This document shows, piece after piece, positions 1 to 33,973 of a stretch of DNA of 64,000 nt (the first letter of the stretch is position 1; every line of letters starts with the position of its first letter). The notes under the pieces were generated by a model. The model did no database searches and had not been told where the DNA came from. It saw nothing but the letters and a program-made list of their open reading frames with translations. The translations under genes and the position numbers were made by a program. This stretch comes from a virus: the IMG/VR virus record IMGVR_UViG_3300035687_000002, positions 82,725-146,724 of that record; one strand, written 5' to 3'.

Positions 1-1813
1 GTATTTTATCAAACTTTTCTACACCATAATTATCTCTTAGAATTTCCTTGTATGCATTTAATTGAATATCAACACCTTTCTTTTTGTAATCAGCAGCTCC
101 TTCCAAAGTTCTCATTAACATACTCTTCCAGTCAAAAATTGATACAACACCTTCTTTATTTTCATCGGAAGGCTCAATAGCTAAAAAGTCAATTGTTCCT
201 AATCTGTTATTCTCTTTATCAAAGACAATGGTTTCAGACAGAAAACGAGTACCTTCCGGGAACCCTTTAAGGAAGTTTTGCATGTAATTGAATATCTTGT
301 TTGATATTGCTTGTTCTGTTTTATTTGTAACAAGGGAAGAATTTCTGGTTCCCATTACATCTCTGATTAACCCAGTTTCTCCATCAATAAGGACGTTCAT
401 AGCATCCTCAAATAGAGAGTGAATGTAAGTACCAGAGGCAGCTTGTTTATCATAGTATTCACGCTTAGATTCATCCAAAGGTCTATTCTTGAATATCTGC
501 TTGTAGTATTTGTCCACAAGGTCAGATACTCTTTCCCCCTCCCATTTTACTCCATCCTTATAGTATTGGTCATCAATCTTGGTAATTCCAAGATTTGTTG
601 GCTTATCTCTAATACGTTCATAAGTTTCCTTTGTATTATTGTACTTGTCATCTCTTTCCTCTAGAGAGAGTTGAGGTTTATTAGCTGCTAGGAAAACTTG
701 GTCTGAATATATATCGTCATATTCACCGAATGCTAAATTATCCTGCTCTAGGCGAGCGAGTGCCTTTTGGAAAGGATTCTTGAACTTACCAAACTTGGAC
801 CTAATCCAGTCCTTAACAGCAACCCACCAAGAGTTAACTCTCTGTACTTTAGCCTGATTCTCAATATCTTGTTCAGTATTGCCCACAAGGAATTCAGCCA
901 ATAACTTGGCTATGGTTTCTTTTTTAATCTTGGGATAGTTCACTGAACCATCAGAATTCTGATATAATGGATTTTTTGAATAAGCTGGGTCTCTCAGCAC
1001 ATCTAAATATAACTGATAATCAATTACTTCCTTCTCCATTTTACGGAAAAGATTCTTATCTGAGTTCTCAATTAACTCGACAAGTATGTGCATTGCTTCT
1101 TCAGGAAGGGTAACGTCCTCTTTACCTTCTACAACCTGCATTACTTTATTAAGAAAATCTATATAAGCGTCACCTTCAATAGGTGCTCCATTGTGAACCA
1201 GTTGTTTTACGGTTTGTATATTGGTAAATCCAATGTTCTTTAGGAAAGTCAATATCTTTTCTCTTGTAAGAGTTCCAGCTTCTGTAACTTGAGTTTTTCC
1301 GGGTTGAGATGTGAAGATTGAGTCCTGATTATCAGGAATATCTCTAATCTCTGTACTTAATGGTTTTTCAGCTAAAAGATTATTTAAGTACTTATTTACA
1401 AGTTCATCTGATGGTTCGATTTCATTTGAGACCTCTTGAGGATTATCAACTAAGGCATAGATAGTATCTGCTACTTTTGCTCCAAGCGCAACACTTGTAG
1501 CTTCTTCTGAATTTTTGTCAGCCAATTGGTCAGCTAACTCTTTGAGTGCTTCCCTCTTTTCTATATCTGATGAATCGTCACTTTTAATAACATTGGTCCA
1601 TGCAAGCATAATTCCTTCATACTCACGCTCCTTGATTGCTGCAATAGCTTCGTTCTCTATAGAGCTTAATTTAGTATCTGGAGCTTTAACAAAATCTTCA
1701 CCAAATCTCTGATTTATTTCATCTGGAGACACACCTTTAACAATAAGCTCTTGAGCTTTTACTATTATACCCTTCTTTACAGTATCAAAATTTATTGGAC
1801 ATTCACTCTTCAT
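1..1813 (-). CDS. PD-(D/E)XK nuclease-domain protein, 3' end outside window
   Basis: The frame opens at ATG 1813 and stays open to the left edge, giving at least 604 residues. Near the visible end is a RecB/Cas4-type core: GTIDFLA with Asp542, then FDWKS with Asp561 and Lys563, the D...DxK pattern of PD-(D/E)XK nucleases. The first 400 residues are acidic and helical with no fold I recognise. It follows the giant RNA polymerase gene by 36 bases, so it may be part of the ejected protein set or a DNA-processing partner. A TATATTTG box lies 4 bases before the ATG, so it may have its own leaderless transcript. The nuclease call is motif-based; the role is inferred. Confidence 0.7.
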   Translation of the reverse strand, partial: MKSECPINFDTVKKGIIVKAQELIVKGVSPDEINQRFGEDFVKAPDTKLSSIENEAIAAIKEREYEGIMLAWTNVIKSDDSSDIEKREALKELADQLADKNSEEATSVALGAKVADTIYALVDNPQEVSNEIEPSDELVNKYLNNLLAEKPLSTEIRDIPDNQDSIFTSQPGKTQVTEAGTLTREKILTFLKNIGFTNIQTVKQLVHNGAPIEGDAYIDFLNKVMQVVEGKEDVTLPEEAMHILVELIENSDKNLFRKMEKEVIDYQLYLDVLRDPAYSKNPLYQNSDGSVNYPKIKKETIAKLLAEFLVGNTEQDIENQAKVQRVNSWWVAVKDWIRSKFGKFKNPFQKALARLEQDNLAFGEYDDIYSDQVFLAANKPQLSLEERDDKYNNTKETYERIRDKPTNLGITKIDDQYYKDGVKWEGERVSDLVDKYYKQIFKNRPLDESKREYYDKQAASGTYIHSLFEDAMNVLIDGETGLIRDVMGTRNSSLVTNKTEQAISNKIFNYMQNFLKGFPEGTRFLSETIVFDKENNRLGTIDFLAIEPSDENKEGVVSIFDWKSMLMRTLEGAADYKKKGVDIQLNAYKEILRDNYGVEKFDKI

Positions 1814-1849: not shown

Positions 1850-4800
1850 TTAACATGTAGGAGTAATTTGTTCTTCATCAGAAGGATTTCTCTCATTTAG
1901 TATGTCAGATAGAGCATGAGCCTGATTAATATCTGTTTTAGCAAACATATCAGTCAATACTTTACCTTTAGTTTTTTCAGCTAACTCATCTATCAGAGCT
2001 GGGTTTTGCTCAGCAAATACTTCCCAAAGTCCTTTATATCTCATCCAAGACTCTTCCTGAGTCATAGCTCTTAATGGAGCTTTACCTTTACCAGCATTAA
2101 CAGAAGAATATCCTTTTACTCCAATCTGGTAGATTTCTTCTATAGATGAATCCCTCTCAAGAACATATTCTGGTTTGTCTGGTAAATCTAGTAAAGTTCC
2201 TTTCTTAATCATAGCAAAGAATGCAGAGAATCTTTTATCTCCTTTAGAGGAAACCTCATATGAATTAGGAGACCTTTTAGCCCATGCATAGTTCTTCGGA
2301 GTAGCTTTACCAAAAGTAACATTAAGATTTTTCTTAACTCTTTCTTCTGGAGTAATTGGTGTTTCTTGTTCTGTTCTTACTTCTTCCATAGTCCTGTTCA
2401 CAAATTTAACTGCCATTCCGGGCTTTAATTTAACTGTTTCAACGATTTGTTCATCAGTTTGTTCTTGAATTGCAATGTTACTTCTCAGGATTGATGGTGT
2501 TCCTGTCACATTTCCGTTATCATCTTCTGATAGATTTGCTACCTCATTGAAACCAAAATCACCTGCAGAATTGATAGGTTTGTATAACAAAGATACGGAA
2601 ACTTGACCTTTATTCTTACCCTTTCCTTCTTTAAAACGAAGTACTGAAGGCTTAGTTCCATCCAGACCAACAAGTTTATACACCTGAATAAATGCCCAAG
2701 AGAAATCTTTTTTATCAATCATTTCGTTTACTTTCCTGCTAACAGCTCTCTTTACAGTTGGGGTTCCATCTTCACCAATTGATTCTACCATGACTACATA
2801 TTCTGGTCTTGGCATCTTCACAGCTACAAATTCTGGAGCATTTCCTAAGATTGTTTCATTATCATCAGTTTCATCCATATATTTCTGCCACATGAACACT
2901 GGACGACTTACCATCTTGGCATTTGCATCAGCTATTTCTTCTTTGAAAAGATTACGGAATTCTTCATGATTAATAGTATCAGAGGATTTTCCATATACTT
3001 GAGCATACTTTTGAACAATAGCTTCTTCACCAAAGTATTTTCTCAGTTCTCCAGTTCCCATATTTCTTACAAATACTCTTTGAGTAAGAGTTGGTCTCTT
3101 TTTCAGTTTCCTCTGTTCTGCATTTCTATTTCCCCAGATTGTAACAATATTACCACCAGCATCAAGATAGTCCATTGCCATTGGTTCAGACTGCTGAACA
3201 AAATTCTTCTTATAAGCATTCTCTCTTACAACTTCTTCATCAAAATTACTGAAATCCGCAAGTTGAATGTTATCAATTACAGGTGCTGAAACCTGAGAGT
3301 AATACTCAAGAGGAATAAGTGGAGTCATGCTATTTCTTTGGGGCTTAACACCATATTGAATGATAGTTCCATATAATAATGCTCTACCAAACTGGGAAAG
3401 CTTTTCATCAGAACTTTCTATGATATCTCTCCAGCCATTAATGATTAGGTTTCTTGATAGTGTATCTTCTCTTGCCAGAGTTCTGCTTAGGTCAATTGTG
3501 TAAACACCTAATTTATCATCAAATTCTATAGCAAGATTTGCCATGAAGAAGTTATTAAGCATAACTCTTTTATATCTATCATCAGTTCTGATAGAGTCAA
3601 AAGTTTCATATAGATTATTGGCATGTAGTGTTCCTCTAGAGGTCACCTCTGAAGGTAAGAATAACTGATTCTTCAATGCAGCGATAGGAACATTACCAAT
3701 TTTTGCATAGTTATTCAATAGCGTGTCGACAATAGCTGCGTCATATTCCTTCATTACAGCATTGAAGTCATCTTCACGTTGGTAAGGATTTCTCTTATAT
3801 ATTCTTCTTGCAACCTTATTTAACACTTCTTTAGGATTGTTTTTCTGTAGTGCAAACAGATTTGTAGTAGAGAAGACTCCACTGAATGTATTTAACAGGT
3901 CAATAGTTTTCTGGATGAAAGTTCCTTTACGAATGGCATCAGCTCCATTTTCAAATCCTCCTTCTGCAGTTGGAGCCATAATCAAGTTACCTTCATAAGT
4001 TCTGTTTCTGATTAAATCCTTTCTTGTTAGCGAGTGAGAAGAACGAATACCAGAAGTGTCGTGATTACTTGAAGTACGAACATCATTCAGATTATTAGCC
4101 ATGGCTTCCATTTTAAGGAAGTTAACAAAAGCTAACCATTGTAATTTCTTTTCACTATCTGTCCATTCAGAAACTTTTGTTCTTGGTTTACCATTTCTGG
4201 CTCTTGTATCAGATTCCTTCTGTTCTCTCTTAATCTTTTCACCTTTTCTTACCATATCTGCTAATACATTCTCAGTGAATTCTACTTTTTCATATTTCAT
4301 ATCTGGACCTGTGCTATATTTACCAAGTATATATTCATTGATTTCTTTCTTCCACAGGAATTTAGAGTAACCAAATTCAGGATTTTTCCTATATATATTT
4401 TCTCTCAGATAATCTCTAATTGATGGCTGCATTAGGAACAAGGCTATATTCTTACCTTTGATTCCAGCTCTTTCGAGAAGCATGTAAACATTTGCCATAT
4501 CGGAGTGCATACCCATTTCAATAATTACAGGGTCTTTAGCAACGTCCACAGCACCGTTAATATATCCAGAAATTTTATCCATGATATATCTTCCATCTGC
4601 TGATTTTTCATAACCCAAAGGGATGAAATCCCATCCATTGATATTCAACAGAGGAGCCTCTTCAAAAGGTAAAGAAATATCATATCCAACAGCCTGCATA
4701 ATTGCTTCATCCTCAGGACGAACCTGACCTTGAGTAATACCTAAACCAGTAATCTGAGAGTTAGCATAGTTCGTCATACTGACAGCAAAGATGGCAATGT

Positions 4801-7800
4801 CATACTTACCTCTAATGAATGAGTGTCTCTTATCAGATAAGTAGTTAATATCCAAGAAGTTAGAGTATTTCAACTCTTTCTTTTCATCAGATTTGTACTC
4901 AGGGTCCATAGCTGTTTGTACAGTATCTCTATTCTCCTTGATATTACTCATATCATTTGGAGATAGTAACTGTAGGAAACGCTCTGATTGCTTTAAGATT
5001 TGTCTGATACTATCAAAGTACTCATTTTCTACAGCACCTCTAGAGTTCTGTAGATGAACAGGTAGTTTAGAGAAACCCTCGTGATTTAAAAGGCTTAGTC
5101 CTTCAGCAATAACATTTGACATTTCAAGCTGGAAAGCTCTATTTTCCATATTTTTCACACTTCTAGCTCTTGCTATAGCTGCGGTTAGTTTTTCAAAAGC
5201 TTCATCTTTTAATTTAATAAGCTTAATCACACTTCTGTAATTATCCAACATCTGGTTAAATCTTGGTACTACTTCCTCAGCTGTTACCACTTCCTGCTCA
5301 ATATATTTTTTCTTTGTCTTTTTGTCTATTCTTTCAACATTTAATGTAACAGCTTTGTTTTCTTCAAATGTTTTGATGAATTCAGTAGTGTAGTTATAAT
5401 AACTTGCAAGTTTAGTTACAAAGTTTTCATTTGTAAGCTCGTCTTCTTTTTCCCAATATTGTTGTTTGATAGATAACGGTAATTCCTTGAATATGTAATA
5501 TCCAGCAGTATATTCATCTTTTACCTCTTTCTTAGCCTCATCAATGTCTTCAGATTCATCAGCAATCTTGGAATATACATCATCAATTCTTCCCTTCTTT
5601 TCAATGAATTCCTTGCTCTCTCTCATAGCTTTGAAGATATCTCTATCATTCCTTTCTACGTGCTGATTTACATATGTGATAAATCTGTCAGAAGTATCTT
5701 CTGAAGCATCCAACTGTTCAAATACAGGCATACCTTCACTGTTCAACTTCCAGTTGTTTAAATAAGTCTGTAACTTATCCACGTCAAAGTCAGAACCAGC
5801 CTTTGCAGTAATGTCAGAAGGTACAACCACAGCCTTACCAAAAGATTCTGGTAAGAACCCTTTGATTGTAAAGAATTCAATTGAGGATGAAGCCTGAGTT
5901 GGAATACGAAAACCAATACCCTGTAATAATTTAGAATTTTCGGGCTGGTTTAACCACTCCATTAATTTCTCATCTGAAACAATAGGTAAACCTAATACTC
6001 TTCTTTTGTCATTTACTTTTTTTCTATATATGTGAGGAAGCTTTATTTCCATACCTTGAATTTCTTTACCATCTTTTTCAAGGGTGTAGAATTCTAGGTC
6101 AGATGCAGTTAGTACCAATTTCTTACCCTCTGCTTGCAGACGATTGAAATCTTCCTGATTATCAACTCTTATCCATCTGTCACCATCTCTGTATGCAGCT
6201 CCTCTCTGGGAGTCATTAAAGAAGGCAGAAGATACCTGAATATAAGGTACACCATTCACCTTTAGAGCAGAAATAGATTTATCTGCCAAAGCCCAAATTA
6301 CATTTGATACAACATTGTAAGAAGGAAGTGATTCAGAAGGATGAAGGAACGCATCAAGGTCTTCATTTAACTCCAGTCCATCAATGATATTATCATCAAT
6401 ATCCAAACGAGTAAGTTCATTCATAATATGCTGCTGTAACTTTACTAAGTCTACGGAAGAGTACTTGAATTCACCATTTTCATATGTATAGCCAATACCA
6501 ATTGTATCAAAAGTATCCATTACACTCTTATCTTTCAGATTCTCAAGAGTTTTAATGGTATTCTGAACTAATTTGTAATCCTTGGACTTATTTTTATCCT
6601 CTTGAGGTAAAGCTAACCAAGAGTTGATTAATTGTTCTTCTGTTAAGGAATTGTTATCCTTTCTGAAATCTGAAGGAACACCATTTGGCATCAGATTTAA
6701 GTTGATATCTTTCGTTAACTGGCTACCAAGACGTGTTTTACCTCCACCTTGAGTTTCAACCTGAATACCCAGTGTTCTGAAAGACAGTTCATACTGTACA
6801 TTTCCAACTGTTTGTAAATCAGTTAGTTCAAAAGGGGACACAGAGCTACCGATTCTCTTATAATGAGAACTAACTCTTCCTTCATTATCTAAATCGGCAC
6901 CAACCTTGTGAGCACTTTTAAAGTTCCTGATATCGGTACGTTCGTTGAGCATTGTCACATACAATCTTTTCAACTCATGATGTTCTCTGGCTATCTGCCA
7001 GCTATTAGGATATACTGAGTGCTTCATCAAATCCTGAGTTCCATCTGGACGAACAGAAGGAATTAAAGTTTTCAAAGGAGAAGGTCCTTCAGTTGGAGGG
7101 TTATCTTTATATTTATCTACAATTTTTTCATCGAGAGCTCTCAGCTCTTCAGAGGAATAAGTATATGCTCCAATCTCTGCTAATTCCTGTCTTGCTAACG
7201 CTGTATCATATTGGAAAAAATCCTCAAACTTTTGAGTCCATCTCCAACCAGCCTTAATCATTACTTGTCTGAATGCCTGTAAAGTGGAAATAGACTGACC
7301 ATCAGCTTCATTTACATCTTCATAAGCATCAAATTTTGCACCCATTTCCCGAAGTGTGTTTAATAACTCAGGATTTACTGTCATTATATCATCAATAGTG
7401 CTACCAGTGATGGAATTTCTGAAGCTAGTGCTGAATATATCCGTATTAGGAATAGCGACAACTTCATCTTCGAACTCTGCATTATTCTTATTTTCATTTA
7501 ACCACGTATTAAATTCTCCAGTTCTGTCATAATAGGCTTGTTCAATAGGACCAAATAGGGATTTTGCTCTCTTTTCCCAATCCTTATATTGAGCAACGTC
7601 ACCATATATTAACTTAAACTGCTCAAAATTAGCAAGTTGTGTATTAACAACTGCATACATAACAACATCCCTAATTCCTGTAAGGGAATGAGAATTGCCA
7701 AATTTCTTTTCTAATATAGTTGTTAAATCATTAATAGAGTAAACGATACCACCTTCACTTGTTTCAGTTTCGTTAATTACCCTGTTTTCAATTAAATTGT

Positions 7801-10800
7801 TAAAAGTATCCAGTGTACTGAACTGAATATAATTCTTTATTGCATTCCTTATTGCTGTTCTGTTTTCAGAAATGATTACAGAAGGTTGCTTACCATTCTG
7901 AATATCTTCATGGATTTTATCCACTAATTCTCTAGAGGTCTGTCCTTTATCCGTGTACTGAAGAATATCTTTGAAGAAACGTAGGGATTTACCAATCTTA
8001 TAGCCAGTTTCCGGATGTATAGTATTCATCTGCTGATGAGTACTATTGAATTCCAGAGCCAATCTTATTTCAGCTTCAAGCTTTGGAATATAGAAATCAC
8101 TTACTACCTCACCCAAGTTATTCTTACCTTGTTCATTACTTTCTATATAGTTCTCAAAAGGTACAAATTCACCCATATTAAAAGCCCACTCAGTTTCAGA
8201 GTCAGCTGTAAGAGCATTATACATACCTGATAATCCTAATGTGAACTGTAGACCAATTCTCTGGTGATATTCCAGCCGAGCTGTCTTTTTAAAGGTTTCT
8301 TTTCCACCTTCCTCAGCAGATTTGATACCTTCGATATAACTTAGAGAAGATAGAATTTTGCTCTTTCTTGAACCATCCGGATTGAACATTTTATTTATCA
8401 TGATAGAGTCAGTGATGTAAATACCATCCTGTAATCTAACATGCTGATGTAAGTGAGGAAATGCCTCTAAGAGCTCACCAAGATTGTTGACATTTGACAT
8501 TTCTGCCAGTACTCTTGATGTAAATGAAGGAGAAATATAGTCCTGTGTAGCGTTATTATTACCATCTAAGTGAGTAAGTAATTTCTCTGACTGAGAAGCT
8601 GCAATTTCATCCAATATAGCTAAAATTTCATTTGTGTATCCGAATATGTCCAGATTAGCAACTGTAATTGTACCAGCGAATGCTTCTACAGTTTGTAGTC
8701 TTCCACCAATATTATGAAGAACTCTTACTAACTCTCTATATTTGTCTATATCACTTTCCTTTAGAGCAATAAGAAATTGTGGAGTCAGAACACCCTTGCC
8801 ATCTTTCTGGTTATATAACCCAAGGAATTGAAGGAACTGACCAAAGTATATTTTCTCTTTTGTCTTCTCTGGTGCAATGAAGAAATTGGCACCTAGTTCT
8901 ACTGTTTGCTTCTTAGGAACATAAGTCTTTATTCCTTTCTCTACTTTCTTTGTAAAGAATATACCTACATTCTTGGTCATGGCAGCACGTAATCTCTTAT
9001 AGAATTTCTCATTGGAAATTCTATTTGTAGACTGTATGAGAGAAACACCACTATTATCATTCATCATCAGGATGTAAGGCACAGGAAATTGCTTGGAAGT
9101 GTAGGAAAGGAACTTCGTACGCAAATTCCACATCGCCCCTTGTGAGATTACCCTGTTTGGAGAGAATAGACGTGTGTATAGAATAGTAAAAGCAGCTTCA
9201 TCAGAAGTAATTGACTGAGCAATCTCTTGTTGTTCATCTACTGCTGAAGCGTTCTCCAGACGTGATATTCCAGAAAGTTGTTTTAACTTCTGTTCAATTA
9301 GGGTCATATCATTCAGATTAGCAAACTCACTTGCTACCATAGACATCATTCTATCATAATTTTCCAGCTGTGGAAGACGTGAAGATGAGTTATCCAATAC
9401 AAGATTAGGGAATATTCTATCTAATCCAGTTGTGAATTTACCATCTCTTCCTTTCTTAACAACAGCTTTTAGGAGTGTACCAATCATAAATCTCACAGAT
9501 AATGAAGCAGAGTTCTTATTTGATACCTCAAAAGGGTTACCTGAATACTCATTTCTGTTTGACATGTTCTCATCATCAGAAGCTAACTGATATTCTTCAT
9601 CAAATTTAATACGGAACTTACGTAATTCAAATTTGTGGTTTTGTACAAAATCAGCCCACTTATTCTTAATTTTATCCCAGTTATTTACAATATCTTCCAG
9701 AGCTTTCTCTTTCTTCCTGTTGATTTCATTCAATTCCTGATTTGGAGTATTGGTTGGGAATGCTCCTGCATCAAATTCTTCCAGCATAGTAATATACATA
9801 TCATCTATCTTATCACGAATTCTATCGTATAAAGTAGAGTCAACTTCACCAACTTCATCAAGTTTTACTATAGAATCTGTAGTTTCAAAAATATCTCTGA
9901 ACATCACAGCTGTAAATCCTTGTAAAAATTCATTATATTTTCTATATGGAATAGGATATTCCTTTGTTCTGTAATTTGTATCAAAACGATTAGTTCCACG
10001 AACACCACGATTTATGAACTTGCCTTCATCAATACTATCAAATATACCTTTGATTGTATTCTGGAAACCGAAGAATTTCTTAATGAAATCCAGAATAACT
10101 TGGAAGAATGTACGTGTGTTCTTTTGTCCATCAAAGACTTTACCCGTCATCTTGAACGTACGAAATTCCTCAGCAATCTCTTCCTTAATTTGATGTGGAG
10201 TAGCTTTTGAGTAGGCAACTGTCTCCCCTGTTTCTCTGTCTGTAAAGGTTCCTTTTCTTGATTTGAATTCTTTAGCAATGGAGTTCCATTCATAATCTGT
10301 TAGTATTTTATTAACAACACCCTCAAATATTTCATGATATAATGTTCCTTCTTCAGCACCCTCCCAAAGTCTGATAGCTTGACCAGTAAACTCACCCCAA
10401 ACTTGTAAATTTTCAGATTTCTGGATGATTTTCTTTAATCTTTCCACAGGAAATTGAGGTAGTACACGTTGAGCATAGGCAATGACAGACTCTAGGTCCT
10501 CTTCAGTTTTGAAGAAACCTGCTTTTGCTACACGGAATGCAGAAGTATCATCATTCCATTTTAAATCTTCATCCTCAAGAGGTTCAGTTCTGTTAGTTGT
10601 TTCACCCGCTTTTTCCTCAGCCTCCTTCTTTTCTCTTGCTTCCAATAGTTTTCTCAGCATAGGAGATGTTACTTTACCAGATGCTTTCTCTTCTGCAGCA
10701 GCTTTCGTAGCGGCAGCTTTACTAACTCCACTTCTCTCCCTTAGCTTGCTCATAAGGTCAGAGGTTGGCTTAGGAGTAGAAACTTTTGGCTTCTTACCAG

Positions 10801-13800
10801 ATAACAAGTCACTAACACTTGTTAATTCACCAAAGTCATACTCACCATTATCATTAAGAGTTTGCTCAGTAGGTTCATCTTCCTGCTCAATGATATTCTT
10901 CTTCTTAATAGTTTCACCATAAGGGACACCAAGAATAATAGACTGAGACGTATATGTTCCCGGAGGATTATTTGCCTCTTGAGCTGCTTGCTCAGGAGTA
11001 TGAATTTGAGTTGTAATTGGAATATATGTACGCACAGAACCATTCGGGAAGTTCTTTGATAACAGGTAATGGTTATATGTCTTCCATTTCCTATCTTTTA
11101 GTTCTCCATTATCCAGATAATATTCTATATATTCCTCTGATGCTTTTTTAGCATTGGCATAATACAGAACATTGTGATATAATTTGGATAAATATTGTTT
11201 TGCCTCAGGATTAGTAGAAAATCCTCCTGTAGAGATATCAATTCTGGTATCACCAAAGTGTATAAAGCTACCTTTCAGGTAAATCTTGTTTGGATGTACC
11301 TTTTCATTCTTACTTAATAAACCAAAGTGGATAACTGAGTTAAGGTATCTCATGTAGCTCTTGTTAAAAGAACCTTTGGTACTCTTGTTGAATGCAAGAA
11401 TAACCTTCATTCTATCACTATATGAAAGGTCTGATAATTTCTTATCACCTAGCTGCTTCTTCATAACTTCCTCAACCTTCTGAACATAAATAGCAGATAA
11501 TTTATCAAAAACTGTTAATATAGTGTTAACTGTATTTTCATCAAGTATGTTATTATCAGCATAGTGCAGCTTTTCAAATAGACCACCAGTCTTAATATAA
11601 GCTCTACCAACTGGTAGTGTTATATTAGTCTCATTTAAGGTATATTTACCTGTAGTAGTTACAACTACAGTCTGAGCATTAATTTGTGCCTCTGATAATA
11701 GAACATCCGTTACAGGGTTATGAACCTTATTTTCAGTTACAGATTCTGTTCTTACTGGAATACCTCTTGTGATATCAAATGAGAATACACCTGTTGGTGT
11801 TGCAAGAGTAAAGTTTTTAGAATTATCTATGAACTTCTTTCTTTGATTTGTACCATACTCCAGAGCCTTTGCTTTATCCTGTTCCCAAGTTTTATTGTTG
11901 GCTTGTTGTTCATCATACTGTGATTCCTCTTTAGAGGAGAATCTGCTAGAGCGTAATATTGAACGAGCTATCTTTGGCTTATCTGCATCCTTTATTTCAG
12001 AGATTTCCCCAAGCTTGTTTAATTCCTTATCAACAAAGTATAATTTACCCTTATCTTGTATAACATGTAGGAAATCAATACGCTTGATAGCAGGGTCTGT
12101 TTCTTCCCAAAACTTGACTTGGTCATTCTTTTCAATTTTGGTATATAAAAGGTCCCTTAAACCTAATGAATCTATGTTGTGTTCTGTTACAGCAAGAACT
12201 TTCAATTTTCCTCTTCCAAGCTTTTGGTTGATTTCAGCTGTGTTCTTTCCGGAAGACAGATATTCCATCAAATGAAAGTGGTCCTTCTCTGGCTGAGAAA
12301 GACTTTCATAATCAGAACCTATAATTGTACCTGCAGCATCATAAACTCTTCTGTCACTGAAAGTTGAAGTAATGAACTTAGTGGCAAGTGGACGTAAATA
12401 ATCAGGACCATCCCAATCATCTGCTACGTTTGTAGACATGTTACTAACTGGAGGTGCTCCAAATTCTGGAATGAAAGAATCTGTTGTTTGTTGTTCTTCT
12501 GTTGAAGACTGAATAACCTGAGGCTTATTTGTAAGGAATTTCAACTGTTCATCAAAACCATTTAATACAGCTTGTTCAGTTGCATTAATAATATCCTGAT
12601 AATACGTGATTTTACCTTCTGTATACTTAAATATTTTTTGTAAATCTTCAAGTTCTTTTTCAAGTGCTCTCTTTTCAGACTCTTTAACAGCTATTTCCCT
12701 GAATCCTTCTACTGCTCCAAAGCTACCTTTTTCTAAATGCTCATTGAAATTCTTTCTGGAAACAAAGAAATTACCCTTGAAATCAGCAAATTGTTTATAA
12801 GCAAGGTTTGTAACTTCCTTAATTATTTTAATTAATCTGTCTAATAGAGATTTTTTGTCAGCTATTTCATTGGTAATCCAATCTTTTTCCTTCTTTAATT
12901 CAGTTGTCACATTTCTAATACCTTGAAAATCACCAGCTTGAGCTTCTTCTTCAAGAGCAGCAATCTTTCTATCCAGATTGGCAAGTTCTTTTTCATCTGC
13001 TTTTAGGGACTCATCTAAGTCATCAATTGCCTTTTGAGTTGAATATATGAGAGTTTGAATTTCCTGAACTCCTACTTTGTTATCTTTCAGTCTATTCAAT
13101 AGAGTGTCAGTCAGTGTCTGAGTAGATACTGATAAATCTCCAATTTTATATTTCTTTTCAAATATTGCAGAGAGTAGTGCGTCTCTTGTTTTAGTTACTG
13201 CATTTAACTTAGATGTGAATATATTTTTGGTCTCCTGAGTAAGAGACTTTTCGTATAAAGGGATTAATTCTTCTACCAATGGACCATAATTCTGACGTAA
13301 CTGGGTTTCCTCTGGAGAGAATTCTGTCTTACCTGAAATTATAGAACCAACAAGTCTTACAACCCTTCTGAAATCTCCGGGAGTTGTTTCTGTGTGCTTT
13401 GAGAATATAGAACTCTTAAAGTTAGATTCCTCAGCCTTTATCTGAGCCTTGATTTCCTTAATTATAGGAATTTCTTTTAACCCTTCATAAAATTTTAACC
13501 AATCTTTAGATAATAGATTAGACTCTCTCCACTGACCTTGTTCAATTATATTTGTATAATTTGCACGTCTTTGATTTGAGTTCTGTACTGCAGCATCAGA
13601 TAGAGAATCTACCAGATTACCATTTGCATCTTTGTGCTGAGCAATATAATATCCAGATGCATCAACTCTTGTTTCTTCAAGCATTGAGGCATTTTCTGTT
13701 TTGTAATCTTCTATTTTCTTAATAAGTTCTTTTTCCTTATCAAGATGATATTTTTGCTCCAGTTCAGATAGACCCTTAGTAAAAGAAGGGTCGCTAATTG

Positions 13801-15967
13801 CTTTTTGTGTGTAATATAGCTGGTACTTAAGGAAGTTAATTTGTTCGGCAGGGAATGCAGATAAAGAAGCATTAGATAAGGTTCTAATGTTATTTAATGT
13901 AGATAACATTTTACTATTCTCCTTATCAATATAGTCAGAGAATATAATATTCTGAATACGAGCTGTGTATAAATCTGACTTAGCAGCTTTAGATTTAGTA
14001 TCATAATCCTTAGCGGAAAGTCCGGAATTTGGTAATTCTTCTTTTTCTGTTCTAACTACTGTATCCTCAGCTTTCTTAGCAAAAATTCCATATTCCCCAG
14101 CTTTATCTGTAGGAACAGCTTGATTTATACCAAATATAGCTGCTTGTTCTGAAGTCAGTTGAGAGAATCTTGCACTTACATCTTCAATTCCCAGCTTGTG
14201 CATTGAAGATATATATTGACTCAATGCTGCTTTAGTAACAGCATCTACAGCTGCACTATTTTGAAATTCCTCTAGAGTGGAAAGTTGTACCTTTCCAAAT
14301 ATTTTTTCAAGTCCATCTTTTTTAGATTGCAACTTGGCAGGTGAAATCACAGGAGTTCCGTCTACAATTTTTATATTGTTATCAGCATCTCTTTCATATA
14401 CATCATTTACAGAAAATAGGTTATTTTTAAGTATCTTACTTTCATCAACTATTCGGTCATACTGAGCAAGTAGCTCCTTTCTCTCTCCAGAGAGTTTAGA
14501 GAAACCTCCACCAGCTACAATACCAATTAAACCACCAAGTCCAATATTTTTTGCAGCTTCCTTATCATCTCCAGTAAATGCTCCAACTGTTTGCTTCTTT
14601 AATTGCTTAAAGAATGCACCCATTCCGGAACCTTCTACAAGAGGATTACCTTGGTCATCCAAGGAATTCATTCTCTGAACAGCTAACTGGGCATTTTCTT
14701 CCCATAAACCTTCAGCAAGGAAACCTTCTGCAGCCTTTTTACCATAGAAAACACCTCTTGATAAACCAGTTTTTGAACCTCCAGCAACCCAATCAGTTCC
14801 AAGTTTAAGAGTAGGAGAACTGGCTTTAAATGGCTTAAAGAATAAAGTATTCTCCCAAGCATTTGATAAACCAAGTATCATAAAGTTAGACCCAACAGTA
14901 TTAGCCGCTAATTTACCAGCAACTGTTCTCATATCTTCATCTGACATATTGGCATATTCACCAACACCTCTATCACGAAGTTCTTTCATTTTTGCCAGAC
15001 CATCTTTGAAGACCTGACTTCCTTCCATAGCTGATTCCATGGCAGTATTAAATGTCCATGCTGCTAATTCAGCAGGTGAACCTAATCCTACACTGGATGC
15101 TACTTTACCTATTCTACTTGTTGTAGAGAAGGCTTTACCAAAAGCATTGAAAGCTTGTTCTCCTTCAGCTATACCTGCAGTTGCACGGGCAACTTTACTT
15201 AGCATACCAAGCTTACCTAAAGCCATTGCAGGTATAGCTGCAGAAGCCATAAACGCAACACCATCAGCCACATCTTCATTCCAGAAGGCATAATTTGTCA
15301 TCTGAGAGAAGAACCCTTTTTCATCAAAACCTGCAGCATGATATATAGGGACAATCTTATCCTTGAATGACTGCTCCTGTGTTTCTAGCCATTTTGACAT
15401 AGCATTATCAGCTACATCAGCCCAATAGTTTGTACTTCCAATAGAAGTTACCATTGCACCAACATATCCAAATCCTTCACCTAATTTCATAACTGCAGGG
15501 ACTACAGTTCTACCTAAGAAACGTAGGACGTTCAGGCCAGTTCTTTTTATAACTCCATCCTGCATGTAGTCATTTCTGTAGTAGTAATCCTCAATATCAG
15601 GAACTGTGGCATCGAAGCCGAACTTCTTATCAATATATTTCTGAGCCTTATCATAAGGAGTTCTTATTTCTTCACCTAAGCCTAACTTGTAATAGGGGTC
15701 AGAAGCTGTTTCCTGTTCCAGATGCTTAACACCTAAGTCCCTGATTTTAGGGTCATTAGATTGTAATGCGTCTTCATATGTCATACCTTGTGGTAAGTCC
15801 AGTGTAGGAGCTAATGCTCCAGAACCTTGTGGAGTTGGTGGTAAGTAAGGATTGTCAGGTTTATTAAGTACATCACTCATTGTCTTGAAGGTATCTAACT
15901 TCAATTCAAACATGCTATTACTATCAAATCCTGTTCTTATATCTCCTTGTAATGTTGGGTCTGGCAT
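1850..15967 (-). CDS. Giant crAss-like virion RNA polymerase protein (4705 aa)
   Basis: Single uninterrupted frame of 4705 residues. At 3393-3397 it has DFDVD inside KAGSDFDVDKLQ; this DxDxD triad binds the catalytic metal in the crAss-like virion RNA polymerases (phi14:2 gp66 type, related to the eukaryotic RNA-dependent polymerase QDE-1). Family knowledge: this enzyme is packaged, ejected with the DNA and transcribes early genes. Glycine/alanine-rich hydrophobic stretches occur at roughly residues 150-270 and 480-500, long charged coiled-coil segments around 950-1180, and a YHEIFEGV motif at 1877-1884 resembles a zincin site lacking its second His. It starts 4 bases after the upstream 847-residue gene. 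The phi14:2 enzyme is about 2180 residues, so this one appears to be fused to other ejected-protein domains. Proteolytic processing is possible but not shown. Confidence 0.88.
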   Translation of the reverse strand: MPDPTLQGDIRTGFDSNSMFELKLDTFKTMSDVLNKPDNPYLPPTPQGSGALAPTLDLPQGMTYEDALQSNDPKIRDLGVKHLEQETASDPYYKLGLGEEIRTPYDKAQKYIDKKFGFDATVPDIEDYYYRNDYMQDGVIKRTGLNVLRFLGRTVVPAVMKLGEGFGYVGAMVTSIGSTNYWADVADNAMSKWLETQEQSFKDKIVPIYHAAGFDEKGFFSQMTNYAFWNEDVADGVAFMASAAIPAMALGKLGMLSKVARATAGIAEGEQAFNAFGKAFSTTSRIGKVASSVGLGSPAELAAWTFNTAMESAMEGSQVFKDGLAKMKELRDRGVGEYANMSDEDMRTVAGKLAANTVGSNFMILGLSNAWENTLFFKPFKASSPTLKLGTDWVAGGSKTGLSRGVFYGKKAAEGFLAEGLWEENAQLAVQRMNSLDDQGNPLVEGSGMGAFFKQLKKQTVGAFTGDDKEAAKNIGLGGLIGIVAGGGFSKLSGERKELLAQYDRIVDESKILKNNLFSVNDVYERDADNNIKIVDGTPVISPAKLQSKKDGLEKIFGKVQLSTLEEFQNSAAVDAVTKAALSQYISSMHKLGIEDVSARFSQLTSEQAAIFGINQAVPTDKAGEYGIFAKKAEDTVVRTEKEELPNSGLSAKDYDTKSKAAKSDLYTARIQNIIFSDYIDKENSKMLSTLNNIRTLSNASLSAFPAEQINFLKYQLYYTQKAISDPSFTKGLSELEQKYHLDKEKELIKKIEDYKTENASMLEETRVDASGYYIAQHKDANGNLVDSLSDAAVQNSNQRRANYTNIIEQGQWRESNLLSKDWLKFYEGLKEIPIIKEIKAQIKAEESNFKSSIFSKHTETTPGDFRRVVRLVGSIISGKTEFSPEETQLRQNYGPLVEELIPLYEKSLTQETKNIFTSKLNAVTKTRDALLSAIFEKKYKIGDLSVSTQTLTDTLLNRLKDNKVGVQEIQTLIYSTQKAIDDLDESLKADEKELANLDRKIAALEEEAQAGDFQGIRNVTTELKKEKDWITNEIADKKSLLDRLIKIIKEVTNLAYKQFADFKGNFFVSRKNFNEHLEKGSFGAVEGFREIAVKESEKRALEKELEDLQKIFKYTEGKITYYQDIINATEQAVLNGFDEQLKFLTNKPQVIQSSTEEQQTTDSFIPEFGAPPVSNMSTNVADDWDGPDYLRPLATKFITSTFSDRRVYDAAGTIIGSDYESLSQPEKDHFHLMEYLSSGKNTAEINQKLGRGKLKVLAVTEHNIDSLGLRDLLYTKIEKNDQVKFWEETDPAIKRIDFLHVIQDKGKLYFVDKELNKLGEISEIKDADKPKIARSILRSSRFSSKEESQYDEQQANNKTWEQDKAKALEYGTNQRKKFIDNSKNFTLATPTGVFSFDITRGIPVRTESVTENKVHNPVTDVLLSEAQINAQTVVVTTTGKYTLNETNITLPVGRAYIKTGGLFEKLHYADNNILDENTVNTILTVFDKLSAIYVQKVEEVMKKQLGDKKLSDLSYSDRMKVILAFNKSTKGSFNKSYMRYLNSVIHFGLLSKNEKVHPNKIYLKGSFIHFGDTRIDISTGGFSTNPEAKQYLSKLYHNVLYYANAKKASEEYIEYYLDNGELKDRKWKTYNHYLLSKNFPNGSVRTYIPITTQIHTPEQAAQEANNPPGTYTSQSIILGVPYGETIKKKNIIEQEDEPTEQTLNDNGEYDFGELTSVSDLLSGKKPKVSTPKPTSDLMSKLRERSGVSKAAATKAAAEEKASGKVTSPMLRKLLEAREKKEAEEKAGETTNRTEPLEDEDLKWNDDTSAFRVAKAGFFKTEEDLESVIAYAQRVLPQFPVERLKKIIQKSENLQVWGEFTGQAIRLWEGAEEGTLYHEIFEGVVNKILTDYEWNSIAKEFKSRKGTFTDRETGETVAYSKATPHQIKEEIAEEFRTFKMTGKVFDGQKNTRTFFQVILDFIKKFFGFQNTIKGIFDSIDEGKFINRGVRGTNRFDTNYRTKEYPIPYRKYNEFLQGFTAVMFRDIFETTDSIVKLDEVGEVDSTLYDRIRDKIDDMYITMLEEFDAGAFPTNTPNQELNEINRKKEKALEDIVNNWDKIKNKWADFVQNHKFELRKFRIKFDEEYQLASDDENMSNRNEYSGNPFEVSNKNSASLSVRFMIGTLLKAVVKKGRDGKFTTGLDRIFPNLVLDNSSSRLPQLENYDRMMSMVASEFANLNDMTLIEQKLKQLSGISRLENASAVDEQQEIAQSITSDEAAFTILYTRLFSPNRVISQGAMWNLRTKFLSYTSKQFPVPYILMMNDNSGVSLIQSTNRISNEKFYKRLRAAMTKNVGIFFTKKVEKGIKTYVPKKQTVELGANFFIAPEKTKEKIYFGQFLQFLGLYNQKDGKGVLTPQFLIALKESDIDKYRELVRVLHNIGGRLQTVEAFAGTITVANLDIFGYTNEILAILDEIAASQSEKLLTHLDGNNNATQDYISPSFTSRVLAEMSNVNNLGELLEAFPHLHQHVRLQDGIYITDSIMINKMFNPDGSRKSKILSSLSYIEGIKSAEEGGKETFKKTARLEYHQRIGLQFTLGLSGMYNALTADSETEWAFNMGEFVPFENYIESNEQGKNNLGEVVSDFYIPKLEAEIRLALEFNSTHQQMNTIHPETGYKIGKSLRFFKDILQYTDKGQTSRELVDKIHEDIQNGKQPSVIISENRTAIRNAIKNYIQFSTLDTFNNLIENRVINETETSEGGIVYSINDLTTILEKKFGNSHSLTGIRDVVMYAVVNTQLANFEQFKLIYGDVAQYKDWEKRAKSLFGPIEQAYYDRTGEFNTWLNENKNNAEFEDEVVAIPNTDIFSTSFRNSITGSTIDDIMTVNPELLNTLREMGAKFDAYEDVNEADGQSISTLQAFRQVMIKAGWRWTQKFEDFFQYDTALARQELAEIGAYTYSSEELRALDEKIVDKYKDNPPTEGPSPLKTLIPSVRPDGTQDLMKHSVYPNSWQIAREHHELKRLYVTMLNERTDIRNFKSAHKVGADLDNEGRVSSHYKRIGSSVSPFELTDLQTVGNVQYELSFRTLGIQVETQGGGKTRLGSQLTKDINLNLMPNGVPSDFRKDNNSLTEEQLINSWLALPQEDKNKSKDYKLVQNTIKTLENLKDKSVMDTFDTIGIGYTYENGEFKYSSVDLVKLQQHIMNELTRLDIDDNIIDGLELNEDLDAFLHPSESLPSYNVVSNVIWALADKSISALKVNGVPYIQVSSAFFNDSQRGAAYRDGDRWIRVDNQEDFNRLQAEGKKLVLTASDLEFYTLEKDGKEIQGMEIKLPHIYRKKVNDKRRVLGLPIVSDEKLMEWLNQPENSKLLQGIGFRIPTQASSSIEFFTIKGFLPESFGKAVVVPSDITAKAGSDFDVDKLQTYLNNWKLNSEGMPVFEQLDASEDTSDRFITYVNQHVERNDRDIFKAMRESKEFIEKKGRIDDVYSKIADESEDIDEAKKEVKDEYTAGYYIFKELPLSIKQQYWEKEDELTNENFVTKLASYYNYTTEFIKTFEENKAVTLNVERIDKKTKKKYIEQEVVTAEEVVPRFNQMLDNYRSVIKLIKLKDEAFEKLTAAIARARSVKNMENRAFQLEMSNVIAEGLSLLNHEGFSKLPVHLQNSRGAVENEYFDSIRQILKQSERFLQLLSPNDMSNIKENRDTVQTAMDPEYKSDEKKELKYSNFLDINYLSDKRHSFIRGKYDIAIFAVSMTNYANSQITGLGITQGQVRPEDEAIMQAVGYDISLPFEEAPLLNINGWDFIPLGYEKSADGRYIMDKISGYINGAVDVAKDPVIIEMGMHSDMANVYMLLERAGIKGKNIALFLMQPSIRDYLRENIYRKNPEFGYSKFLWKKEINEYILGKYSTGPDMKYEKVEFTENVLADMVRKGEKIKREQKESDTRARNGKPRTKVSEWTDSEKKLQWLAFVNFLKMEAMANNLNDVRTSSNHDTSGIRSSHSLTRKDLIRNRTYEGNLIMAPTAEGGFENGADAIRKGTFIQKTIDLLNTFSGVFSTTNLFALQKNNPKEVLNKVARRIYKRNPYQREDDFNAVMKEYDAAIVDTLLNNYAKIGNVPIAALKNQLFLPSEVTSRGTLHANNLYETFDSIRTDDRYKRVMLNNFFMANLAIEFDDKLGVYTIDLSRTLAREDTLSRNLIINGWRDIIESSDEKLSQFGRALLYGTIIQYGVKPQRNSMTPLIPLEYYSQVSAPVIDNIQLADFSNFDEEVVRENAYKKNFVQQSEPMAMDYLDAGGNIVTIWGNRNAEQRKLKKRPTLTQRVFVRNMGTGELRKYFGEEAIVQKYAQVYGKSSDTINHEEFRNLFKEEIADANAKMVSRPVFMWQKYMDETDDNETILGNAPEFVAVKMPRPEYVVMVESIGEDGTPTVKRAVSRKVNEMIDKKDFSWAFIQVYKLVGLDGTKPSVLRFKEGKGKNKGQVSVSLLYKPINSAGDFGFNEVANLSEDDNGNVTGTPSILRSNIAIQEQTDEQIVETVKLKPGMAVKFVNRTMEEVRTEQETPITPEERVKKNLNVTFGKATPKNYAWAKRSPNSYEVSSKGDKRFSAFFAMIKKGTLLDLPDKPEYVLERDSSIEEIYQIGVKGYSSVNAGKGKAPLRAMTQEESWMRYKGLWEVFAEQNPALIDELAEKTKGKVLTDMFAKTDINQAHALSDILNERNPSDEEQITPTC

Positions 15968-15971: not shown

Positions 15972-18515
15972 TTATTTTATTTTCACATCTTCTTGTCCGG
16001 TGAGTAGATTATTGATGTAATTTAAAGCAGCTGTTTCATTATCTCCTATCTTGGCAGGTATCTCGGTACCATTTACTAAAATAGTGTATCTAGGTTCTCC
16101 TGTTGCTAAACTTCTTTTTGTTTTTAATTGGATAACATTGCCTCTTGGAGTAATACCTGCTTTAATTATAAGACCTGTAGGTATATTTTCCGTAGTTACT
16201 CTTTTGGCAGCATATGTCATAAGATTTTTTATTTCTTCATTGAATTCTGGCTTAGGTACAACTCCTGATAAATAATCAACTTTAATACGTATTGAATTTG
16301 GATGTTTACCTTCTTCAATTATTGAAGCACCTGCTGTTGATGATGCTGCTGCTTTTCTCAAATCACCTGATGAAATTGATTTCCCTTTAGAGTCGACTGC
16401 TTGTATGTCGACCCAACCATCAACAGGGTCAAAACCACCGATTGTGTTGAATGTTGCATCTTCACCTAATGAAGAACCAAAAATATCTGATATAAAGCTC
16501 ATTGTAGCAGTCATTTCCTGTGATATTTTACCTTTACCTAAAAGATTCCCTGAAGCAAGTCTAATCTTTTGTACAGCAGTTGTACTTTCTAAAAAGTTAT
16601 TTACTTTTGTTTTATAACTTCCTTCTTTCTGTGATTGTAACCCTTTTATCTTTTCATACATTCTGTCTATTGGAGAACCAAATTCTGTCAATATTTCATT
16701 GGTAGCTTTAGAGCGTAAAACATATCCTATTTCGCCTCCACTTTCGCCTCCACTACTTAGCTGGTCAATGTAAAAAGAAGGATGAGTATCATTAATAATA
16801 GCAGTCATATCTGCTTTAGATAGTATTATTCCTCCCCTAGTTGTATAAGCTTGAGGTATTGATTGTATTACTTTTTCAACTCCTTGTTTATAAGTTCTGG
16901 CGATATCTGGATTCTTATCAGTAACTGTTTTCTCAGCATCATCTAAAATACTCTTCATTGAAGTTCTTTTATTTACTAAACTTGTATAAGCATTTAGTGC
17001 ATCCTTCCACTCTATCATTTGTACATCATTAGAATTAGCAGTCAATCTCTTTTTGATTACATCTTCAATTTTCCCCAATTCTTTTGTGAAAGACTCTTCA
17101 TCTTCTACTCCTTCAAGAATTTTAGCTATATCAGGATTGCTTTGTAAAGCCTGTACAATTTCTGTCATTTTTGATTTAACAGAATTATCAGCTGAATTGA
17201 TAGCTGTTTGTAATTCATTATAACTAGTACCTTCTTCTTTTTCTGCTTGCCCTAAAACTCTCTGAATTTCAGCATCAGAAACACCCATTCCTCTGAGCAT
17301 ACGAACACGAGTTGGTATATCAGCATTACTATCTCCCAATAGGAGTTTTTGCTTTAACTTGTAATCTTCTATTTTGTAATCATGAGCGAAACCAGCTACT
17401 TGTCTGTTATCTAATTTTTGTTGAGTATAATACATTATACCTACAGGGTCTGCTTTTTTGCTTTCCTCTACGTCTTTCCTAGCGAATGCTTCAGCAAAAA
17501 TACCATTTGCTCTTTTCATATATGCCATTGAAGCTAAATCTTCGTAATTATTCTTAATATAATCATCATCATGTAGTTTAACTATGGTTCCTTGAAGATT
17601 AGTAATTTGATTGTTATATTGGTCTATTCGAGACCCTATTTCTTTAACTGTCTCTTCAGAGCCTATTTGTCCGGCGAGTGCTACCTTTTGAGCTGAAAGA
17701 TTTTTAATTTCCTCATTATAACTTTTCACTTTTTCCTCTGTCGCTGGAATATAATCCATTCTAAGAGCATTATAATCATCTCCGTATCTAACTACACCTG
17801 AGATTCTCATCTGCTGCCTCGCTTTATCAGATAACCCTGCCTCGAGACAGCCCCACAACTTTTGGGCTGAAAGAGAATTTGCCTTTTCGGTCTCTAAATA
17901 CATTCCCTGAGTAGTTGTTTTACTAATAACATTTGGTTTACATTTGTCTAATATAGCAGACCTTTCTTTAGAGACATCATGATATGGTGTATACTGAGCA
18001 TCTTTTGCAGTTTTAAAGATACTCTCTAGTTGTTCTCTCGATGTGGATTTTGAAAATCCTTTGAAAGAACGCAAAGCATATGCTAAATTGTCCATGTGGA
18101 AACCCTCACCTTTAGTTTTTTCATCATTTTTCCACTGGTCGGCCTCAGATAATACATCTTTATATTTCTTAGTTAAATAATCATCATACATTATACCTTT
18201 GTCTTGTAATAAAGGTCGGAATATTCCAAATCCTTGCCTTTGGACTGATGGGTCAGATAGGTCCATACTGGAAAGCTTCATCATCTGTTTCTCAGCTTTA
18301 CTCATGTAATCTTTTCTTAATTCTTGGTTTGCATCAAGAGTTAAGTCTAAATTAAGAGCATTCTCATAAATATTTTTTACCCTCGCTGCTCCTTGGTCCC
18401 AAAAAGCATTTTGTGCGGATATACCTTTATATATATCATTGATTGGGAGAGAAAACGGGCGAAAGTTACCAACAGCTTGGTAATCATTATTTTGATATGG
18501 AGAAGTAGCACTCAT
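15972..18515 (-). CDS. Probable internal (cargo/ejected) virion protein, 847 aa
   Basis: I do not recognise a catalytic domain. The protein is hydrophilic and mostly helical, with probable coiled coils around residues 260-310 and 430-560 and a more beta-like C-terminus. It lies directly before the giant RNA polymerase gene (4-base gap), the usual place for crAss-like internal cargo proteins, so cargo or ejection protein is the best guess. Its ATG shares one base (TAATG) with the stop of the LAGLIDADG gene, suggesting translational coupling or insertion of that gene just upstream. The gene is intact. Confidence 0.6.
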   Translation of the reverse strand: MSATSPYQNNDYQAVGNFRPFSLPINDIYKGISAQNAFWDQGAARVKNIYENALNLDLTLDANQELRKDYMSKAEKQMMKLSSMDLSDPSVQRQGFGIFRPLLQDKGIMYDDYLTKKYKDVLSEADQWKNDEKTKGEGFHMDNLAYALRSFKGFSKSTSREQLESIFKTAKDAQYTPYHDVSKERSAILDKCKPNVISKTTTQGMYLETEKANSLSAQKLWGCLEAGLSDKARQQMRISGVVRYGDDYNALRMDYIPATEEKVKSYNEEIKNLSAQKVALAGQIGSEETVKEIGSRIDQYNNQITNLQGTIVKLHDDDYIKNNYEDLASMAYMKRANGIFAEAFARKDVEESKKADPVGIMYYTQQKLDNRQVAGFAHDYKIEDYKLKQKLLLGDSNADIPTRVRMLRGMGVSDAEIQRVLGQAEKEEGTSYNELQTAINSADNSVKSKMTEIVQALQSNPDIAKILEGVEDEESFTKELGKIEDVIKKRLTANSNDVQMIEWKDALNAYTSLVNKRTSMKSILDDAEKTVTDKNPDIARTYKQGVEKVIQSIPQAYTTRGGIILSKADMTAIINDTHPSFYIDQLSSGGESGGEIGYVLRSKATNEILTEFGSPIDRMYEKIKGLQSQKEGSYKTKVNNFLESTTAVQKIRLASGNLLGKGKISQEMTATMSFISDIFGSSLGEDATFNTIGGFDPVDGWVDIQAVDSKGKSISSGDLRKAAASSTAGASIIEEGKHPNSIRIKVDYLSGVVPKPEFNEEIKNLMTYAAKRVTTENIPTGLIIKAGITPRGNVIQLKTKRSLATGEPRYTILVNGTEIPAKIGDNETAALNYINNLLTGQEDVKIK

Positions 18516-19345
18516 TATTTTATACTTTTGAATTTTTCATATTTTCTTTCAAGAAATATAGATGAATCTTTATACATCCATTCAGCTATTTTCTTACATT
18601 GTTTATTTCCACTATATTCAAGATAAAAGACATTTCTATGTTTTTTAATTTTGGTCATAGTTAAATTTAATTCTTTTACCATTATTTTTTGAATTGAACT
18701 TACAAAATCAAAAGTTCCCACTACTGACCAATCAAATTCCAAAAGTTTACTGTTTCTGGAAAAATGTGGTTTTACTCCTGTTATACAACCATCACCATCA
18801 AAATATCCTCTGATAAAGTGGTTGTGAAGACTTTCAGGAACTTGGTCTTCAGAAGGAAATGTTAAAATTAAAGATTTAGCTTTTACAGCTCCTAATTTTG
18901 TTAGTTTATCACTTATTCTTTTGCTTGATATGGTTAAAATATATTGAGCTGAGCTATTTCTATACGAAGATGTAGAAGCTTTTCTGTAATATAATGGTCT
19001 ATCATAATTTAACAAAGTTTTAAAAGTTTCTAAAAGAGTTTTATCTTTTTCTTGTAATCCTATTACTACTCTTGTTCCTTCTGGAAAATTACAACCATCA
19101 GCATAAATAAATCCTAACATATAAGCTTTTTCTTCACTATCTATTTTATCAAAAAAATCTTCTTTTAAAGAATACTTTCTATTGATTTCTGAAATAGACT
19201 TTGCTTTGTATCCTCTTCTTTCAAGTAACCCTCTACAAGTTCCTAACCCTTTATTAAAATATGTATCCAAATCCTTGAAGTTATACTTTCCTGTTTCGTA
19301 CATTTCAATCATTTTTTCTATTTCTAATTTAGACATCCTCTTCAT
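18515..19345 (-). CDS. LAGLIDADG homing endonuclease (276 aa)
   Basis: Two LAGLIDADG motifs are present, YMLGFIYADG (about residues 75-84) and FIRGYFDGDG (about 177-186), each ending in the acidic residue that holds the catalytic metal. This makes it a monomeric two-repeat enzyme that cuts DNA to promote its own spread. A GTG at 19351 is in frame but lies inside the -7 box of the promoter, so ATG 19345 is preferred; the mRNA would then be leaderless. It is free-standing between two large structural genes rather than inside an intron: both neighbours are complete. Confidence 0.88.
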   Translation of the reverse strand: MKRMSKLEIEKMIEMYETGKYNFKDLDTYFNKGLGTCRGLLERRGYKAKSISEINRKYSLKEDFFDKIDSEEKAYMLGFIYADGCNFPEGTRVVIGLQEKDKTLLETFKTLLNYDRPLYYRKASTSSYRNSSAQYILTISSKRISDKLTKLGAVKAKSLILTFPSEDQVPESLHNHFIRGYFDGDGCITGVKPHFSRNSKLLEFDWSVVGTFDFVSSIQKIMVKELNLTMTKIKKHRNVFYLEYSGNKQCKKIAEWMYKDSSIFLERKYEKFKSIK

Positions 19346-19350
19346 AATCA

Positions 19351-19382
19351 CAAAGATACGATATCATTCTCAGGAAACCAAA
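19351..19382 (-). promoter_or_regulatory. Promoter of the LAGLIDADG endonuclease gene
   Basis: Minus-strand TTTGG at 19378-19382, 19-base spacer, TATCTTTG at 19351-19358. The -7 box ends 5 bases before ATG 19345, so transcription should begin at or next to the start codon. Confidence 0.65.
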
Positions 19383-22504: not shown

Positions 22505-22505
22505 A

Positions 22506-33719: not shown

Positions 33720-33788
33720 GAGAGAATCGAACTCTCGTGCCTATGATTTACAGTCATTGCTGGTTGCCCTGACCTCTGACTCAGGTAG
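33712..33788 (-). tRNA. Degenerate tRNA-Tyr (GTA)
   Basis: The 3' half is good: anticodon loop CTGTAAA (anticodon GTA), T arm GAGAG-TTCGATT-CTCTC and acceptor strand CTAACCC. No matching GGGTTAG is found at the 5' side and the D arm is poor, so it may be a remnant or very atypical. 5' limit uncertain. Confidence 0.45.
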
Positions 33789-33873: not shown

Positions 33874-33878
33874 TTGTG

Positions 33879-33964: not shown

Positions 33965-33973
33965 TTATAATTG

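Follow-up and report, generated by a model that had tools for sequence, protein, structure and literature searches.

The Cargo Gene Block and Its Single Long Frame

The stretch of DNA analyzed here (the window, 64,000 nucleotides, positions 82,725 to 146,724 of IMG/VR record IMGVR_UViG_3300035687_000002) carries a giant gene on its minus strand, together with a set of phage structural genes. The features referred to below are as follows.

2-1813, minus strand: gp65-like RNA polymerase-associated protein, first 604 of 1742 aa (whole gene G000:79309-84537 in the virus record, the rest lying outside the window)
626-1306, minus strand: zincin-like domain ZN2 of the 1742-aa protein, residues 170-396, with the motif EEAMH at 238-242 (PEEAMH)
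1850-15967, minus strand: giant fused virion RNA polymerase gene, 4705 aa, 534 kDa
1889-2284, minus strand: C-terminal domain, residues 4562-4693, PHROG 9995 (unknown function; E=3.7e-30)
4391-7681, minus strand: two-barrel RNA polymerase core, residues 2763-3859 (blastp, AF2 model, Foldseek)
5777-5791, minus strand: DFDVD catalytic motif, residues 3393-3397 (D1361/D1363/D1365 of phi14:2 gp66)
6905-6907, minus strand: invariant K3021 (gp66 K1065), candidate catalytic-barrel lysine
7022-7024, minus strand: invariant K2982 (gp66 K1027), candidate catalytic-barrel lysine
9956-10549, minus strand: zincin-like (MPTase) domain ZN1, residues 1807-2004 (blastp, profile family, AF2), the C-terminal domain of the upstream protein in unfused relatives
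10181-10186, minus strand: K1928-E1929, with Lys replacing the Glu that immediately precedes the presumed third metal ligand, also Glu
10322-10336, minus strand: HExxE motif HEIFE, residues 1878-1882, where HExxH is expected
14300-15646, minus strand: N67 domain (residues 108-556), which corresponds by homology to the N-terminal region of phi14:2 g067, crAss001 gp47, and phi17:2 gp39
15972-18515, minus strand: 847-aa protein in the position of cargo protein C1, a role suggested by gene order
24782-29491, minus strand: muzzle protein (crAss_MUZ; Pfam E=1.6e-27), a marker of Crassvirales context

The giant frame starts with ATG and comprises 4705 codons with zero internal stops under table 11. 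DFDVD is the sole DxDxD in the protein; with the composition of this protein, chance alone would give about one bare DxDxD (1.2) but only 0.003 DFDVD. The original prediction, which placed the DxDxD motif of a crAss-like virion RNA polymerase at residues 3393-3397 of this single frame, is confirmed, homology making it certain, and its statement that the protein exceeds the phi14:2 enzyme more than twofold in length is correct as arithmetic (4705 vs. 2180 aa). It should be noted that phi14:2 gp66 is one of three proteins of its block; fairer yardsticks are p-crAssphage gp44 (4070 aa), cr107_1 gp41 (4213 aa), and cr53_1 gp57 (4645 aa).

TerL, portal, MCP, ring 1, ring 2, and muzzle proteins of crAss type are present according to PHROG and Pfam, and judged by these families the phage belongs to the order Crassvirales. 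Its TerL is about 25-27% identical to those of all named phages among the matches listed, and its muzzle is closest to the muzzles of the group of phi17:2, csAssE-Sib, and Lbo-JY46. These epsilon-like phages keep both N67 and gp65-like proteins (L012/L015 in phi17:2, L013/L016 in csAssE-Sib, L011/L014 in Leptolyngbya phage Lbo-JY46); a DPBB polymerase was not found within the block retrieved from the three of them. The 847-aa protein, which is encoded 4 bp upstream of the giant gene, matches an 845-aa protein of a Leptolyngbya phage (phmmer E=3.9e-8). A LAGLIDADG homing endonuclease gene with a GTG start (18515-19351) is inserted between the 658-aa and the 847-aa genes of the cargo block, a gene for a ClpP-like protease (29491-30177) lies between those of the ring proteins and the muzzle, and two short frames (22124-22528, 134 aa; 21388-22131, 247 aa, the latter with no match in Pfam) are found between the 758-aa and 658-aa structural genes. 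The phage genome uses the standard code and has 26 tRNA genes clustered at 33788-41074.

Polymerase Core, N-Terminal Module, and Distribution of the Fusion

With the whole giant protein as query, a sequence search of the PDB returned only noise and Pfam nothing useful, and a search for close relatives through back-translated peptides of the polymerase region found none; relatives were found instead through a DFDxDK DNA pattern and through a zincin profile. Residues ~2774-3408 match phi14:2 g066, the crystallized virion RNA polymerase (tblastn E=7e-14), and a second block, residues 3550-3852, matches the same protein (gp66) in BLASTP. An AF2 model of residues 2751-3910, calculated from an alignment of 54 homologues gathered in this analysis (pLDDT 77, pTM 0.79), has the phi14:2 virion RNA polymerase as its best PDB match in Foldseek (6VR4; E=2.2e-24, TMq 0.51, prob 1.00), the matches after it being far weaker and mostly cellular beta' subunits. 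The motif sits in a conserved GSDFDxDK context, and D3393, D3395, D3397, K2982, and K3021, which are invariant in 58/58 sequences, align with gp66 D1361, D1363, D1365, K1027, and K1065; by comparison with two-barrel RNA polymerases generally, the two lysines would be those of the partner barrel. Judged by homology, by the model, and by the alignment of these catalytic-type residues, the region around DFDVD is a genuine virion RNA polymerase of the crAss type. The outcome that would have refuted the original prediction, a predicted structure other than a double-psi beta-barrel polymerase core, did not materialize.

At the other end of the chain, residues 113-546 match phi14:2 g067 (tblastn E=2e-3; blastp 2e-7). 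A profile of the N67 domain recovers g067 (iE 6.9e-80) and crAss001 gp47 (2.8e-52), the latter detected in virions by mass spectrometry (PMC10172136), and it also finds cr107_1 gp40, phi17:2 gp39, and proteins of csAssE-Sib and the Leptolyngbya phage. The ZN1 domain in turn matches residues 2264-2433 of a 2474-aa protein of Dulem virus 41 (blastp E=5e-11), the gene for which lies just upstream of that of a 2247-aa polymerase, the two proteins together comprising 4721 aa. By these matches the N-terminal ~2,040 residues are a homologue of g067 (annotated as a virion protein) and crAss001 gp47, zincin-like C-terminal domain included. As N67 resembles g067, and ZN1 the C-terminal end of the Dulem virus 41 protein encoded ahead of the polymerase, the 4705-aa chain is a fusion, following gene order, of two neighboring virion proteins; judging by where the Dulem protein ends, the junction would lie near residue ~2040.

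The long stretch preceding the motif, which had been proposed to hold ejection and pore-like domains, is thus in part what was expected, namely a fusion to another virion-protein module, the g067/gp47 homologue; what had been overlooked is that a zincin-like domain with a changed metal site separates the two modules. Pore-like domains find no support: a single stretch of marginal hydrophobicity was seen in the protein (residues 233-251; Kyte-Doolittle 1.54 for this sequence alone and 1.03 averaged over 81 relatives), for which a membrane role is possible. The crAss001 cargo protein thought to form a channel is gp45 (PMC10172136), and its counterpart here is, by gene order, likely the 847-aa protein.

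That the halves of the protein have their counterparts in two adjacent genes of Dulem virus 41 could also be expected if a missed stop or a misassembly had united two genes, a reading that we consider extremely improbable given how often the fusion recurs. N67, zincin-like domain, and polymerase are found in one frame in 70 of the 72 IMG/VR sequences with the variant (HExxE) zincin in which both the 5' end and the polymerase are visible (some of the contigs being near-copies). With HExxH members included there are at least 56 distinct complete fusions of 3655-5052 aa (median 4328), seven of the 56 being at least as long as the 4705-aa chain, itself counted; the nearest relatives are frames of 4741 aa (L137) and 4550 aa (L138) on contigs of ~165 kb. 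Recurrence in the 70 HExxE contig sequences and in cr53_1 gp57 shows the fused layout to be real rather than an assembly error, and its presence in a Chitinophaga chromosome and in the Suoliviridae likewise refutes the artefact. The same census of contigs, and cr53_1, rule out a fusion peculiar to this phage, and the suggestion that it represents an extreme form of the system does not hold: cr53_1 (4645 aa) and dozens of IMG/VR contigs have it, and crAss RNA polymerases as long as ~6000 aa have been described (PMC10136315).

The bacterial copy, a fused N67, HExxE, and DPBB polymerase (L217), is encoded in the chromosome of Chitinophaga sp. YR573 (NZ_FOJF01000001.1), where it and homologues of TerL and portal lie together in a stretch of ~46 kb (G001:C7:3694818-3740386) of a 4.8-Mb contig. 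This suggests that the locus is a crAss-like provirus, and a host range in the Bacteroidota for the clade. Crassvirales are often regarded as nonlysogenic, and a provirus is unusual.

The Zincin-Like Domains and Their Altered Sites

The core of the AF2 model of ZN1 has a pLDDT of ~90, with HEIFE on one helix and the K1928-E1929 pair on the next long helix. Among the top matches in a Foldseek search against the PDB are zincins (2EJQ, Spartan-type, PPEP-1/3, PprI), all with E>=0.35 and thus nonsignificant, and the alignment of the domain has no match in Pfam; taken with the motif and the profile family, these weak fold matches make a zincin fold probable. E1929 aligns with an invariant Glu in the helix that follows the motif and would be the third metal ligand. 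We had considered K1928 as a replacement of the ligand itself and dropped this, as the invariant Glu after it fits better; the ExxA motifs of ImmA/IrrE are an analogy that points to the same Glu. The MPTase domains of injected phage and plasmid proteins have HEXXH and a Glu on the next helix, and self-processing has been suggested for them (Iyer et al., PMC5512222). ZN1 lacks the HEXXH of these polyvalent-protein MPTases, and HExxE is found throughout its clade.

Two samples bear on how the two altered positions are distributed. In an unbiased set of 43 domains, reached by way of the polymerase motif or of the window and regardless of the zincin site, all 13 HExxE domains have K/R before the Glu and all 30 HExxH domains have E, with zero exceptions (some of the sequences being near-copies). 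Six of six Crassvirales records (crAss001, cr53_1, jaberico, p-crAssphage, cr107_1, and Dulem virus 41) have H and E at the two sites. A search with a profile of the variant gave 219 relatives, 80 of which were taken in; its patterns fix one or the other residue, each match requiring one pattern only, so that conservation in this sample is partly by design. Among 103 distinct sequences the residue pairs are E/K (63), E/R (11), H/E (28), and H/K (1).

A tree calculated with the two site columns removed places the variant in one clade of 77 rows (74 with E), consistent with one origin. Inside this clade there are two reversals to HExxH, one in L066/L119, where Glu is regained at the second position, and one in L204, where Lys is kept. 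L066/L119 nest in the variant clade in trees of the zincin domain only and of the DPBB only, which rules out domain exchange as the source of their HExxH. As the tree has only three changes at the one position and two at the other, the coupling of H/E with E/K is not statistically provable, and we make no such claim for coevolution.

The best reading of these alignments is that ZN1 is no longer an ordinary zinc protease. H1878, E1879, E1882, and E1929 are invariant in 74/74 variant sequences (in part through the design of the search), and the invariance of H1878 and E1879 speaks against simple decay of the site. It would also suit a domain that has remained a metalloprotease in which Glu serves as second ligand and the preference for metal or substrate is altered, and the return to HExxH with Glu in L066/L119 is easier to picture from a site that still functions; a basic residue beside the third-ligand Glu in all 74 would, however, disfavor a dication, and we hold a retained protease to be unlikely. 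What looks new here is the conserved, unusual residue set of this zincin-like domain, common to a large group of mostly environmental phages.

The neighboring gp65-like protein, searched as the full 1742-aa sequence, matches the C65 profile with E=9.7e-73. Most of its relatives have EExxH as the motif of ZN2, HExxH being kept in other members of the family, and K/R precedes the helix Glu in 16/22 aligned cases of ZN2 (a hand count of the alignment). Each of the two giant proteins here therefore has a zincin-like domain with one zinc His changed to Glu. The ZN1 site (H, E, E, K/R, E) and the mirror change in ZN2 might form a nonproteolytic switch or docking pair, under selection of its own, that keeps the injected chain intact, a speculative idea to which we give little weight.

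Proposed Mechanism and Comparison with Known Systems

We think it very likely that the product of the giant gene is a DNA-dependent RNA polymerase of the two-barrel type that is packaged in virions, and that it is synthesized as a single 534-kDa chain together with a virion protein for which the gene usually lies directly upstream; this chain would be delivered and would work uncut. From N- to C-terminus it would consist of the N67 module, the zincin-like domain, the polymerase core, and a C-terminal tail, with the gp65-like partner (1742 aa) as a separate protein. Its location in the virion and its ejection are proposed by analogy: mass spectrometry identified crAss001 gp47, gp49, and gp50 as virion cargo (PMC10172136), and the annotation of phi14:2 g065-g067 describes them as structural on MS/MS evidence. 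As inferred from these two phages, the chain would sit inside the capsid close to the portal, pass through the tail with its N-terminus leading, and refold in the host, where it would transcribe early genes; the fusion would fix a 1:1 ratio and tow the polymerase in behind the delivery module. Where relatives retain HExxH, the zincin lies at the junction and might cleave the chain at that point. For this clade, with Glu in place of one zinc His and Lys/Arg adjoining the third-ligand Glu, the prediction is that ordinary zinc proteolysis has been lost and that the chain works uncut.

It seems doubtful that the chain is instead a precursor, cut near residue ~2040 by its own zincin, the ClpP-like protease, or a host protease, so that the working polymerase is separate as in phi14:2 and crAss001. 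Unfused relatives do make both parts as separate virion proteins and the ClpP-like gene is located within the structural block, but ClpP-type enzymes are not the usual makers of single site-specific cuts. Zincins of injected phage proteins have been proposed to self-process (PMC5512222), yet the zincin of this clade is without one zinc His, and an alternative cutter would be needed. The differing junctions at which crAss cargo proteins are joined, described below, make a question testable, namely whether an injected polymerase is threaded in one chain with its delivery module and whether the zincin at the junction cuts; the clade with the altered zincin, expected not to cut, is a natural control.

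The closest named counterpart is cr53_1 gp57 (NC_055889.1, Blohavirus americanus, Suoliviridae; 4645 aa, annotated "hypothetical protein"), which likewise has N67, zincin, and DPBB (DFDID) in one chain, with a separate gp65-like protein of 1709 aa next to it (4,645 + 1,709 vs. 4,705 + 1,742 here). It differs in that TAG is read as an amino acid, that the zincin is intact (HEAWH with EE), and that its match to N67 is partial. Cellulophaga phage phi14:2 (gp66, 6VR4; g067; g065) has a homologous core, catalytic residues, and neighboring proteins, but as three separate proteins, and its g067 is without a ZN1-type motif. Bacteroides phage crAss001 has the same modules (gp47, N67 and zincin with HEAFH; gp50, DPBB; gp49, ZN2 with PEEFAH and C65), split over three genes and with the ZN1 zincin intact. 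The Intestiviridae, as seen in p-crAssphage gp45/gp44 and cr107_1 gp40/gp41, also have a giant fused virion RNA polymerase (4070 and 4213 aa) and an upstream zincin protein, but the other junction is fused (DPBB and C65) and the zincin protein is separate. The three giant crAss cargo proteins, a delivery module with zincin, a polymerase, and a partner, are thus joined at junctions that differ among families: none in the Steigviridae, polymerase and partner in the Intestiviridae, and delivery module and polymerase in the Suoliviridae and the large clade found here.

Two more distant systems share part of this arrangement. P23-45 gp96 (5002 aa; PMC10770324) is a virion two-barrel RNA polymerase fused to a protein of the delivery apparatus, but the polymerase is of another family and N-terminal, the partner is a tape measure protein, and the phage is long-tailed. 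The N4-like virion RNA polymerases with an MPTase domain (Iyer et al. 2017, PMC5512222) resemble the chain described here as injected giant polymerases fused to a zincin-like domain, and differ from it in their unrelated core, which is a T7-type single-subunit polymerase.
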